Of a stretch of DNA of 20,194 nucleotides, positions 4,097 to 15,430 are shown one piece after another (positions within the stretch are counted from its first letter, which is position 1; each line of letters begins with the position of its first letter). Source of the stretch: a virus; the IMG/VR virus record IMGVR_UViG_3300017751_000334, positions 1 through 20,194 of that record; one strand, written 5' to 3'. The notes beneath the pieces were generated by a model. That model saw nothing but the letters and a program-made list of their open reading frames with translations, had not been told where the DNA came from and made no database searches. A program made the position numbers and the translations under genes.

Positions 4097-4747
4097 TTAT
4101 TCACTTCCATTAATTGTATTTTCACCAAATAAAGAAGCAGGAGCTTCCATATCATCACGGCGTGTTCTTCGAGATTGATTTCTCAAAAGTTCTACAGAGT
4201 TAGTATATCGTTGTTCGTAATAATTACTTACTGTATAATTTTTCATAAAGTCCCCTGCCTCTACCATGCAGCCATAAAATAAAGCATCATAACAAAAGTC
4301 AGAGAAATAGTTAGTTTGATTTAAACTAGTCAAAGCAGTTGGCCTAGCGACATATACAAGCTCACCACCATAAGTAGCGCTTGCAGTAGGAGCAACAATA
4401 ACATTAGTATTTGTTTTCTTAGCATAATACTTTGGTGTTCCTGTGCTGGCACTAACAGGCCAGTAGTCATAAATAAATTCATCTGTTCTTTGTAGTAAAT
4501 TAATCTTAGTTCCATTATCTTCAATCCGAAGATTTTTTACATAGCGTGTTTCTGCTGGCAGTGTAAGAGTGTTCTTACCTGCAGATAATGTAACTGTTGT
4601 AGTTGTTACCAAACCAAAATCATCTAAGGCTTTAACTAATCGCTCTTCAACACGATTAACCATCTTAGGAATAGCCGCAACAAATTCATTGCCATCATTC
4701 TCTGTGGCATCAATAATGTCGGTAACAAGGTAAGTATAATTAGCCAT
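4097..4747 (-). CDS. Head-tail adaptor-like protein (SU10 adaptor type)
   Basis: 216 residues from the ATG at 4747 (MANYTYLVTDI). A longer in-frame start at 4786 would add a hydrophobic leader inside the upstream gene and is less likely. The order is an N-terminal helix (EFVAAIPKMVNRVEERLVKA), a beta section, ETRYVKNLRIEDNG, the TGTPKYYAKKTNTNVIVAPT strand pair, YVARPTALTSLN, then C-terminal helices containing FSDFCYDALFYGCMVEAGDF. That is the same architecture as the gene at 1215-1895 and as phage adaptor proteins of the P22 gp4/SU10 type. It overlaps the upstream gene by 8 bases. Confidence 0.72.
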   Translation of the reverse strand: MANYTYLVTDIIDATENDGNEFVAAIPKMVNRVEERLVKALDDFGLVTTTTVTLSAGKNTLTLPAETRYVKNLRIEDNGTKINLLQRTDEFIYDYWPVSASTGTPKYYAKKTNTNVIVAPTASATYGGELVYVARPTALTSLNQTNYFSDFCYDALFYGCMVEAGDFMKNYTVSNYYEQRYTNSVELLRNQSRRTRRDDMEAPASLFGENTINGSE

Positions 4748-11528: not shown

Positions 11529-11557
11529 ATTATACCATTAAGTTCTCCAGTATCCAA
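11529..11557 (-). promoter_or_regulatory. Promoter P1 for the portal segment
   Basis: Minus-strand TTGGAT (11557-11552), 17-bp spacer, TATAAT (11534-11529), with TG one base upstream of the -10 box (extended -10). It straddles the end of terL. Transcription would start near 11522. The layout matches the other three sites on this strand, but its -35 box is the weakest. Confidence 0.6.
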
Positions 11558-13115
11558 CCCTCTTTGTTCGTCTTGGATTATAGTCATCTTCCCAGCTGGG
11601 GTCTTCATTGTGTGACACATGCCAGCTATCCCGCATATAGTGTATAGCCATAGTCATGGCATCTACTTGGTCATCGTGTGCGCCGTTGGGGAATGCAAGG
11701 CATTCATCGTATAAATCTTTAGCCCACTCCTTCCCTTTAGGTATGTACACACGACCCGACTCCATAAGAGGCGTAGCGGCATAGACACGTGAAACCTTGT
11801 CTCTGTCTGGAAGATAGTCCAGAACTGGTAGCCCTGCGAGGCGCATATCCTGAAGCAACGATTGACCAGAAGCTTTCTTCTCAATGATACACACATCTGG
11901 TTTGTGTTTTTGGTACAGATGTTGTGCCGTACGGCGAAGGTCAGGGTACTCAAACCTTTCCTTGACATTCCCAAGAAGGATAAGGTTCGGTACAACGTAC
12001 TCTCCACCATACTCGTCACGCTCCGCTTGGTGAAAGATGCCCCAGGTTTGGATGACACTATAGTCTGCTGTTTTTCTAGTAGAGAAGGCCGTGTCATACG
12101 TTTGAATGATAAACTCACAGTGCGGCGGGTCTTCGTATTCCCACCACTGAAACCAGTTCTTCTTGATAATCCCACCTTCGTCTGGCGACGGGTTCTGCAT
12201 GTATAGCGCATCCCAGTATCTACTCCCGTTGCTTGCTCGTATCTCTTGCTCATCCAACTGCAATACTGAATCTGGTTTCCATTCTGGGAAATAAGAAGAA
12301 CCCTCTGGCAATCCCAGCAGTTCGGCTGCAGTTTCGTCTAGCCATGCAGGAATACTAATTACTTCCCACGGCTCTGTGCTAAACTCTGACTCCTGCTTGA
12401 GCAGCCAGCCGCACAGGTCATCAAAGTGATAGCGTGTGTTAATAATAATAATGCTGCCATTCGGCATCAGGCGGGTACGCAGACCAGAAGGCCACCACTC
12501 CTTGATATATCTGCGGCCTGCATCACTGAAGCTGTCTTCTTCTGACATAACGTCATCCAGTAGAGCCAAGTGCGCACCCCGACCAGCAATCTGTGACCGC
12601 ACACCCGCAGCATAGTAAGAACCATTGTGGTTTGTCTTCCACTTGCCAGCTGCCTTAACGTCTGACCGAAGGGCTACACCCTTGAACACACGCTGAAAGT
12701 CTTCCGTGTTTACAATATCCCTGACGCTACGGCCAAAGTCACTAGCAAGCTGGTCACTGTGTGACACAGACATAATCTCGTGGTTCGGCTCACGGCCAAT
12801 ATACCACGCAGGAAATATCTTGCTAGTAATAAGTGACTTACTTGAGCGTGGCGGCAGGAAGACCATCAGTCTTTTTATCTCACCATCGGCTACCTTCTGC
12901 AATCTGTCACACAGTAGCTCGATATGCCTACCCATCTTGAAGTCAGTGACTAGGGTTGGGGCTACTCTGCGTACAAATGTAAGTAAATCTTCTTTTGATT
13001 TTTCTTGAATATATTTATCTAAGGCTGCATCTAGTGCCTGATGGTCTAAATAGCCACCATTTTCTGCCATTGGCTCATTGCCAACTACTACATCTTGTAT
13101 CTGTTCTAATTCCAT
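11538..13115 (-). CDS. terL: Terminase large subunit
   Basis: 525 residues. The ATPase half has the Walker-A-like LPPRSSKS (residues 87-94), motif DFGRSVRD (126-133), SQIAGRGAHLALLDD (174-188, Walker B), and the coupling motif IIIINTRYHFDD (222-233). The nuclease half has QTYDTAF (Asp341), IIEKKASG (Glu412) and AHDDQVDAM (Asp481, Asp485), the RNase H-like acidic set. Order and length are typical of phage TerL, which threads DNA through the portal and cuts it. No small terminase gene is recognisable in this window. The start has only a weak Shine-Dalgarno; Met16 is an alternative start. Confidence 0.97.
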   Translation of the reverse strand: MELEQIQDVVVGNEPMAENGGYLDHQALDAALDKYIQEKSKEDLLTFVRRVAPTLVTDFKMGRHIELLCDRLQKVADGEIKRLMVFLPPRSSKSLITSKIFPAWYIGREPNHEIMSVSHSDQLASDFGRSVRDIVNTEDFQRVFKGVALRSDVKAAGKWKTNHNGSYYAAGVRSQIAGRGAHLALLDDVMSEEDSFSDAGRRYIKEWWPSGLRTRLMPNGSIIIINTRYHFDDLCGWLLKQESEFSTEPWEVISIPAWLDETAAELLGLPEGSSYFPEWKPDSVLQLDEQEIRASNGSRYWDALYMQNPSPDEGGIIKKNWFQWWEYEDPPHCEFIIQTYDTAFSTRKTADYSVIQTWGIFHQAERDEYGGEYVVPNLILLGNVKERFEYPDLRRTAQHLYQKHKPDVCIIEKKASGQSLLQDMRLAGLPVLDYLPDRDKVSRVYAATPLMESGRVYIPKGKEWAKDLYDECLAFPNGAHDDQVDAMTMAIHYMRDSWHVSHNEDPSWEDDYNPRRTKRVGYWRT

Positions 13116-13135
13116 ATTGCTTTTCTGCAGTTAGT

Positions 13136-13159
13136 GTTGCATATTTGCACTATTGCAAC
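13136..13159. promoter_or_regulatory. Short inverted repeat overlapping the plus-strand promoter (operator candidate)
   Basis: GTTGCA (13136-13141) and TGCAAC (13154-13159) form a perfect inverted repeat with a 12-bp centre. The right arm contains the -35 box of the promoter at 13153-13181. The site would suit a dimeric repressor, but no candidate regulator gene is present. It also lies in the 5' leader of terL. Confidence 0.4.
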
Positions 13160-13181
13160 AGGTTTGAATCCATGCTATACT
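13153..13181 (+). promoter_or_regulatory. Plus-strand promoter with extended -10
   Basis: TTGCAA (13153-13158), exactly 17 bp, then TATACT (13176-13181) preceded by TG one base upstream (extended -10). Start near 13188. It faces right and drives the gene-less unit that ends at the terminator at 13341-13365. Confidence 0.65.
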
Positions 13182-13274
13182 ATCTTTACTTTAAAGTTCG
13201 GAGGTAAATATATAATAGCTACTCTATATAGATTTATGTATGCCCCCGCTAAGTAGTTCTGGACAACTACAGCT

Positions 13275-13303
13275 ATTATACTTTGGACACAACTACTACA
13301 CAA
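13275..13303 (-). promoter_or_regulatory. Promoter P0 for terL
   Basis: Minus-strand TTGTGT (13303-13298), 17-bp spacer, TATAAT (13280-13275). The start would be near 13268, giving terL a leader of about 150 bases. It lies inside the opposing plus-strand unit, so the two promoters face each other. Confidence 0.68.
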
Positions 13304-13340
13304 GTAAAACATCTTACCATAACACAACTGCCAACTCCAG

Positions 13341-13365
13341 AAGCCCCCGCTTGTGGGGTTTTTTT
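13341..13365 (+). terminator. Intrinsic terminator on the plus strand
   Basis: AAGCCCC pairs with GGGGTTT (one G-T pair) around the loop CGCTTGT and runs straight into seven T (13359-13365). No U-run follows on the minus side. It closes the short unit that starts near 13188. Confidence 0.82.
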
Positions 13366-13448
13366 ATGTAATAAGCTACTATGAAGTACCTTGGTATTTT
13401 TTTCTACTACTAGACACACATTATATTGTGTTTTATTTCCTAGATTTA

Positions 13449-13754
13449 GGGGGTAGGGGTGTAATATAGAGGCCATCCTGGCAGATTCTGGCAAGCCCCA
13501 TGAAGTTTCCTAGTGAAAATAGTCGTTATATATCAGGGGTATATTATATATATACATGCACGGCAGTTTTTTGGGGGTGGGTTGCGGCAAGGCTTGGCAG
13601 GATTTGGGAAGATTTGGCAAAAGGATGCTTTTTAGAATAGGACAACCATGCTGACCTATTATCAATGTGATAAATATATATATTTTCGGTGATTCTTTTC
13701 AGAATATGCGACAAATAGGGCATGGCAAAACTTGGCAATATACCCCCTACCCCC
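13449..13754. repeat. G-rich inverted repeat bracketing the TTGGCA clusters
   Basis: GGGGGTAGGGG at 13449-13459 has its exact reverse complement CCCCTACCCCC at 13744-13754, 284 bp further on. Three of the four paired TTGGCA clusters lie between the arms and the fourth just beyond. Another G-run (TTGGGGGTGGG) is at about 13571-13581. The arms could form a long hairpin or cruciform or G-rich structures. Confidence 0.7.
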
Positions 13755-13780
13755 TTGTTATTATTGGCAAAACTTGGCTA
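13475..13780 (+). repeat. TTGGCA iterons in exact 10-bp phase (four clusters)
   Basis: The core TGGCA begins at 13479 and 13489; then CGGCA/TGGCA/TGGGA/TGGCA begin at 13585, 13595, 13605 and 13615; then 13723 and 13733; then 13765 and (as TGGCT) 13775. Within every cluster the spacing is exactly 10 bp, one helical turn, and all cores are on the plus strand. The units read roughly GATTTGGCAA. Isolated copies occur at 13850 and 13871. Phased direct repeats are typical binding arrays for an initiator or repressor that lines up on one DNA face. Confidence 0.78.
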
Positions 13781-13914
13781 TGTTCTACCTATGTTCTCAC
13801 TCGCTGGCTTCATGCTGTCTTTATATATACAAAAAAAAATAATGAGGCTTGGCATGATGCAAAGCATGAATGGCAGGAATCAGCCAATCTTAAAAAACTT
13901 TACCAGCTAACCTA

Positions 13915-14180
13915 TTGAAAATAAACGATAAGCCAAAATAATTCAAAAAAATGCAAAATATCGCTTGCAATTAAAAACAAGGCATGGTCATATAGTCATA
14001 ACGAAACGGCAACCGCAAAACGCAAACGCCGAATCGCTAGGGAATAACCCGCCATGTTATAGGTGCTATAACCCCAAGATAAGGCGCAAGCCTTTAGGAA
14101 AGCAAAAAGCCTAAAGCAAGCGGCAAAAGCCCGAAAAAAACTAAGGCAAGGCAATGGCCTAAAGATTGCACAAAAAAGGA
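13915..14180. other. A-rich, T-poor non-coding segment
   Basis: The plus strand here is strikingly depleted in T; for example 14101-14160 has 28 A and 4 T by my count, and 13921-13980 has 34 A and 12 T. All ATG codons I checked are followed quickly by stops. A CTTTAGG/CCTAAAG inverted pair lies at about 14092-14117. It may be an untranslated leader or part of the origin. Confidence 0.55.
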
Positions 14181-14181
14181 T

Positions 14182-14209
14182 TTGACAAGCGCCTTCAATT
14201 TTGTAAAGC
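14182..14209 (+). promoter_or_regulatory. Putative promoter upstream of the first plus-strand gene (weak)
   Basis: A perfect TTGACA (14182-14187) lies in the phrase GGATTTGACAAGC; a poor -10 candidate, TAAAGC, follows at 16 bp. The same phrase (AGATTTGACAAGC) recurs at 14516-14527, upstream of the next gene, which suggests a shared promoter or activator element. Confidence 0.38.
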
Positions 14210-14266
14210 TAGTCGCAACATAACCCGCCAAGCGTGCAAACGCTGGCAATGAAAGAGAGGCTTGCT

Positions 14267-15239: not shown

Positions 15240-15253
15240 AAAGTGTAACAAAA

Positions 15254-15430
15254 ATGCAACAGTTTATCGGATTATGGCAGATGCTGTCAGGCGTGGCCTG
15301 TGGCATTATTGCAACAGTAATGATTATTCACAATGTCAATAATGATATTGTGTATCATATGTTAGCCGCATGGCTGACTATATCTGGTATAGCCTTATCA
15401 TGTGTCGGGCTATATCTAGTTTCTAAATAG
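15254..15430 (+). CDS. Small two-span membrane protein (58 aa)
   Basis: 58 codons, starting MQQFIGLWQMLSGVACGIIA, with two hydrophobic segments (about residues 5-25 and 36-56) joined by a short polar turn (HNVNNDIVYH). The size and two-span layout fit a small holin or a membrane-acting host-takeover peptide, but no family is recognised. It is preceded by GAAAGTG exactly 15 bases before the ATG, as for the next two genes. Confidence 0.65.
   Translation: MQQFIGLWQMLSGVACGIIATVMIIHNVNNDIVYHMLAAWLTISGIALSCVGLYLVSK

Follow-up and report, generated by a model that had tools for sequence, protein, structure and literature searches.

The locus analyzed here raises a simple question: what does a promoter that leads into no gene do when it directly faces the promoter of a phage terminase gene? 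The window, by which we mean the whole stretch of DNA that was analyzed, is an IMG/VR virus record of 20,194 bases. Its late (minus) strand begins with the gene for the terminase large subunit, terL (phrog_38, E = 2.5e-112), with portal and major head protein genes downstream, and its plus-strand genes begin at ~14.27 kb. As judged from comparison with related contigs, the gene-less unit upstream of terL is a real and conserved arrangement of convergent promoters and probably has a part in timing terL production, its most likely function being interference with, and antisense action on, the terL promoter and leader. The elements of the locus are as follows.

11538 to 13115, minus strand: terL, terminase large subunit gene
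13116 to 13268, minus strand: predicted terL 5' leader of ~150 nt, its start placed from P0
13137 to 13159, no strand assigned: inverted repeat GTTGCA..TGCAAC, read by eye, right arm over the PS -35
13153 to 13181, plus strand: PS, promoter of the gene-less unit, TTGCAA-17-TATACT with a TGC extended -10
13184 to 13197, no strand assigned: palindromic start region CTTTA-CTT-TAAAG / ACTTTAAAGT, about -4 to +10 of PS
13188 to 13365, plus strand: predicted gene-less RNA of ~178 nt, its ends placed from promoter and terminator
13242 to 13249, plus strand: first of the two copies of GCCCCCGC in the entire window
13275 to 13303, minus strand: P0, the terL promoter facing PS, TTGTGT-17-TATAAT
13333 to 13365, plus strand: intrinsic terminator, AACTCCA.G.AAGC-CCCC-GCTT.G.TGGGGTT and a T-run
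11557 to 11529, 8336 to 8308 and 5090 to 5062, minus strand: late-strand promoters TTGnnn-17-TATAAT, besides P0 (13303)

Conservation of the facing promoters

Scans confined to the window recover promoters at chance level (5 found, 5.1 expected) and terminators no better than chance (4 found, 2.5 expected), and conservation was therefore used as evidence instead. Eighty TerL relatives were retrieved, others were added with further queries, and measurements of the unit come from 34 contigs whose TerL is ~82 to 100% identical to that of the window.

PS consists of a -35 element (TTGCAA, 13153-13158), a 17-bp spacer ending in TGC, and a -10 element (TATACT, 13176-13181), with transcription predicted to start at ~13188, about 7 nt past the -10. 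All 34 relatives retain TTGnnn, the 17-bp spacer and TGY ahead of the -10, which bears out the extended -10 promoter that a sequence-only reading of the window had proposed at 13153-13181. The family consensus of PS matches the window twice against 0.04 expected, the second match lying on the minus strand. Among the 2.9 million viral contigs of IMG/VR, the exact PS start motif occurs in 31, and in every one of these terL is adjacent and on the opposite strand.

P0 is equally constant: its -35 (TTGTGT, 13303-13298), 17-bp spacer and -10 (TATAAT, 13280-13275), read on the minus strand, correspond to TTGTRT-17-TATAAT in 34 of 34 relatives, and this consensus matches the window twice against 0.00 expected. 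The predicted P0 start, ~7 nt past the -10, falls at ~13268. Predicted PS and P0 starts are separated by 80 bp in the window and by 37 to 111 bp among the 34 relatives, inside the ~200 bp that marks the facing promoters of an interference module. From the promoter positions, the predicted plus-strand RNA overlaps the 5' half of the terL leader by ~81 nt, in agreement with the earlier proposal that P0 lies inside the unit, fires the other way, and leaves the first ~80 bases of the RNA antisense to the leader.

Conservation is concentrated at these signals. In an alignment of 32 sequences, mean column identity is 43%, and the invariant columns fall mainly in the PS -10, the first transcribed bases, the P0 -10 (6 of 6 positions), the P0 -35 (5 of 6) and the CCC of the terminator loop; apart from P0, the middle of the RNA is not conserved. 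The retention of the promoters and of the terminator position while much of the unit drifts suggests that the opposing transcription is used and not accidental.

Two symmetrical elements adjoin PS. Among the long relatives with the motif, the start of PS is the sole location of the exact TTTACTTTAAAG; in one relative (G003) this sequence is a perfect palindrome and matches both strands at one place. The palindromic start region of PS could act as an operator or fold into a 5' hairpin. The inverted repeat GTTGCA..TGCAAC sits in the 3' part of the predicted terL leader. It had been described as covering the PS -35, which is true of its right arm in the window but holds only for group A, to which the window belongs: by eye, the group B version (GTTACA..TGTAAC) lies closer to terL and leaves the PS -35 uncovered.

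The PS motif is absent from contigs whose TerL falls below ~80% identity, in which the fuzzy matches, at 8 to 9 mismatches, amount to noise. Ten sister-clade contigs do have a plus-strand promoter ~264 to 284 nt from the terL start, matching 11 to 12 of the 12 positions of TTGACA-17-TATAAT, and in one of the sister clade (L049) it stands, by eye, back-to-back with the terL promoter. Because the sister clades are without the PS motif and the L049 promoters are back-to-back, the facing layout seems to belong to the clade of the window.

The gene-less RNA and its terminator

The terminator comprises a stem (13333-13344 paired with 13349-13360), a CCCC loop (13345-13348) and seven T residues (13359-13365). 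Its energy of -13.4 kcal/mol makes it clearly stabler than shuffled sequences (z = -3.4). The terminator previously placed at 13341-13365 is hence present, although its stem is longer and begins at 13333. A T-run closes the unit in 25 of the 34 relatives, giving RNA lengths of 127 to 219 nt, and in 24 of these 25 it ends 46 to 72 bp behind the P0 -35; the remaining one, L039, has an inserted hairpin and a T-run ending 90 bp behind. The other nine units (L028 and group B, with eight units measured) have no T-run at this site but keep both promoters, and in them a weaker downstream hairpin may act as the terminator.

MAFFT is not structure-aware, and hand alignment was therefore used for the terminator arms. 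Among the eight stems aligned in this way, 94% of cells pair, and both partners have changed in five of nine stem pairs (2.2 expected); none of 500 shuffles reaches the observed values. This covariation applies where a stem was alignable, the hand alignment omitting the loose hairpins of L037, L039 and L044 (3 of the 25 units with a T-run), several group A variants in another register, and the terminator-less units.

Among the relatives compared, no ORF inside the unit is shared across groups, in line with the earlier description of ~180 bases without a credible ORF. A 43-codon frame at 13240 was considered as a small protein gene and rejected: it is missing in L008, L010, L012, L013 and in other groups. 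In the window, this frame continues through the terminator.

The fold of the RNA as a whole is only mildly stabler than that of shuffles (z = -1.7), and RNAalifold, run on the 32-sequence MAFFT alignment, which is not structure-aware, gave no consensus structure for it. No Rfam family matched the window at the gathering score, and at E ≤ 5 the best sub-threshold matches (E of 0.53 and 2) were not credible. The check on conservation and folding that had been suggested for the unit was borne out for the promoters, which are kept, and for the terminator stem, which covaries where alignable, but yielded neither a whole-RNA consensus fold nor an Rfam match.

Short motifs recur within the unit. The second copy of GCCCCCGC lies at the apex of the terminator, and a C-rich motif is present twice per unit, recurring across groups. 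A first hairpin (GGAGGU or GGGGU with ACC(U)CC) is recurrent by eye; it lies within the overlap with the terL leader, such that its changes are assignable to neither strand. GGAGGT itself is kept in groups A and B only, with GGGGT-type sequence elsewhere, which weakens the suggestion that the unit is a decoy carrying a start-less GGAGGT.

Control of terL and alternative explanations

Convergent-promoter interference combined with antisense action on terL is the reading that we favor, and we hold it half-confidently. Polymerase from PS would traverse the first part of the terL leader together with the entire P0 core and then be halted by the intrinsic terminator directly behind P0, leaving, we infer, a discrete RNA. 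Transcriptional interference (occlusion and collision) from an active PS would reduce P0 output, and the antisense RNA would pair with the terL leader, further lowering terL output. Once PS was shut off or outcompeted, P0 would fire, and its transcripts would cross PS in turn; the palindrome at the start site is a candidate operator through which PS might be turned off. The predicted result is that terL, encoding the packaging motor, is low early and rises late, or that its level is set, as opposed to a switch of the whole late program; timing, sign and size of the effect are all predictions from the arrangement.

The T-run keeps a near-fixed place behind P0 despite the variable RNA length, and a model in which polymerase sweeps P0 and then stops fits this best. 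Also in favor of interference, both promoters and their 17-bp spacers are kept in 34 of 34 relatives though the distance between the promoters varies from 37 to 111 bp, invariance falls mainly on promoter hexamers, the terminator stem covaries, and the exact PS motif always accompanies an opposed terL. Counting against it are the nine units without a T-run, which indicate that not every unit would yield a discrete short RNA; the other late promoters, which are unopposed; the terL leader, whose fold is unremarkable and no better than that of shuffles (z = 0.4); and an origin-like intergenic region (with a GC-skew turn, repeats and a conserved AT-rich block), in which a transcript could have a different purpose.

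The reach of the unit is limited by the remaining late promoters. The window has five exact matches to TTGnnn-17-TATAAT against 0.26 expected, four on the late strand, and relatives G002, G003 and G004 have such late promoters at matching gene positions. The window contains no PS-like promoter opposing those at 11557, 8336 or 5090. Because these three stand unopposed, the unit cannot alone hold all late genes off, and the idea of a switch doing so, advanced by the sequence-only reading, loses its footing. To judge from promoter positions, terL and P0 read-through are within reach of the element, and late genes overall are not.

A broader reading, which we put forward tentatively and as less likely than not, is that of an inherited regulatory RNA locus not described before, in which an opposing promoter and a terminator dedicated to the terL promoter would let synthesis of the packaging motor alone be timed or dosed apart from the other late genes, in a phage otherwise using plain host-type promoters. 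The element is small and defined (~230 bp) and could be moved into a laboratory strain for interference, antisense and origin assays.

Of the alternatives, a replication-origin transcript has the most to recommend it but is a minor possibility. Transcription from PS would open or prime an origin in the ~900-bp noncoding divergent region, the overlap with terL being incidental. Cumulative GC skew turns at this region in relative G002, although gene orientation likewise produces skew turns, and G002 carries a T7-like primase-helicase and a family A polymerase. The window side of the region has TTGGCAAAACTTGGCAA-type repeats, and a conserved AT-rich block, CAGGGGTATWWTATATATA, is present even in relatives that are without the unit; however, in 25 of 34 units the RNA stops at the T-run, before both. 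Sister clades too have a strong plus promoter here, with repeats nearby in L049. An origin leaves unexplained both the place of the terminator behind P0 and the restriction of facing PS and P0 to one clade.

A trans-acting small RNA of ~130 to 220 nt, pairing with host or phage messages through its C-rich motifs, of which the terminator loop carries one, is unlikely. The invariant CCC within a covarying stem, the two C-rich motifs per unit and the discrete 3' end with a U-tract in 25 of 34 units would all suit such an RNA. Yet its duplex energies with the gene starts of three relatives, based on approximate ORF calls, are no better than those of shuffled RNAs; GGGG precedes the start codon in only 0 to 3 of ~80 genes; the middle of the RNA, apart from P0, is unconserved; and no Rfam family matches.

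It is very unlikely that the unit is an attenuated leader of the early operon, in which early PS transcripts would mostly end at the terminator and sometimes reach the plus-strand genes at ~14.27 kb. PS is directed toward the early strand, and in group A an upstream segment can pair with the 5' arm of the terminator (UUCUGGA/UCCAGAA) in the manner of an antiterminator; group B likewise has an alternative pairing, for a different hairpin, but groups C and D show none. Moreover, ~900 bp without clear genes separate the terminator from the first plus-strand gene, and several relatives have TTGACA-type plus promoters further downstream.

A packaging RNA like the phi29 pRNA, brought to mind by an RNA locus whose adjacency to terL is constant (31 of 31), is scarcely credible, being unnecessary where the early strand of two relatives carries a gene for an ordinary small terminase subunit (Terminase_2, PF03592). 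An alignment that is not structure-aware showed no conserved compact fold.

Precedents, phage group and neighboring sequences

Facing promoters and antisense RNAs to late genes are already known in phages; the present unit is new and is unusually well conserved. The lambda 6S RNA is the leader of pR', a gene-less, terminated RNA of ~190 nt that is transcribed in the late direction and lengthened by Q antitermination, whereas the present RNA runs against the late genes. In P2-like phages, the lytic and lysogenic promoters stand face-to-face, 40 to 60 bp apart, and interfere by transcription (PMC7498355). The two close facing promoters are shared with our unit, but those of P2-like phages both drive protein operons and decide lysogeny, whereas here terL is set against a gene-less, mostly terminated RNA, and a casual look at the present phages noted no lysogeny genes.

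Pseudomonas phage PAK_P3 makes early antisense RNAs over its structural genes, the small ones averaging ~176 nt (PMC4933390), and LUZ100 is reported to have antisense RNA in its structural region (PMC10134795); for these noncoding RNAs, early shut-off of late genes has been proposed (PMC4933390, PMC10134795). The likeness is a short noncoding RNA antisense to late genes, here a predicted one. The RNAs of PAK_P3 and LUZ100 were found by RNA-seq and are nearly all intragenic, whereas the present RNA lies in the terL leader and promoter, usually has an intrinsic terminator and is conserved across a clade. Antisense RNAs to phage late genes come mostly from RNA-seq of single phages, in which function and noise are hard to separate. 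Lambda OOP and aQ and P22 sar are short cis-antisense RNAs that lower a key regulator (PMC12197685). They share with the present RNA complementarity to an mRNA of the same locus (here the ~81-nt predicted overlap), but they act on cII, Q and ant, in temperate phages, and the present unit has no Rfam match. In the literature searched, with subscription papers mostly outside its scope, no marine or terL-linked precedent was recognized.

The phage group is uncultured and, judged from its nearest cultured relatives, probably marine. The window has no DNA similarity to cultured phages; the nearest cultured-phage TerL proteins, ~40% identical, are those of Pelagibacter phages HTVC023P and HTVC027P, in which co-directional genes precede terL. 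GTDB genomes searched for terL gave no match and hence no host. Two relatives of 59.7 kb each, with differing contig ends and no end repeats, are probably near complete. The one examined (G002) shares the divergent gene plan of the window and encodes TerS, ribonucleotide reductase, ThyX, a family A DNA polymerase and a T7-like primase-helicase on its early strand; no RNA polymerase gene was noticed there in a casual look.

Between the unit and the plus-strand genes, positions 13370-14260 form a region of ~900 bp without clear genes that is a candidate origin or packaging site. It contains TGGCAAAACTTGGCAA-type repeats at 13595-13780, and the block CAGGGGTATATTATATATA is kept in many relatives, including the unit-less L076 and L206-L211. 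At 13384-13411, TACCTTGGTATTTTTTTCTACTACTAGA comprises a T-run and then a short palindrome, a combination that recurs, by eye, 3' of the terminator in several groups. In L049, three iteron-like 42-nt repeats containing TTGTTACAAGTT lie near the plus promoter (positions 4571-4654 of that contig). By eye, the unit is replaced in many sister-clade contigs (L049-L080) by a short ORF of ~70 codons upstream of terL. In the window, a repeat resembling TGTTGCAT..TGCAACA is present in two copies at 15244-15316 (allowing 3 mismatches, 3 matches against 0.06 expected), and sister clades have a similar repeat ahead of the short ORF.
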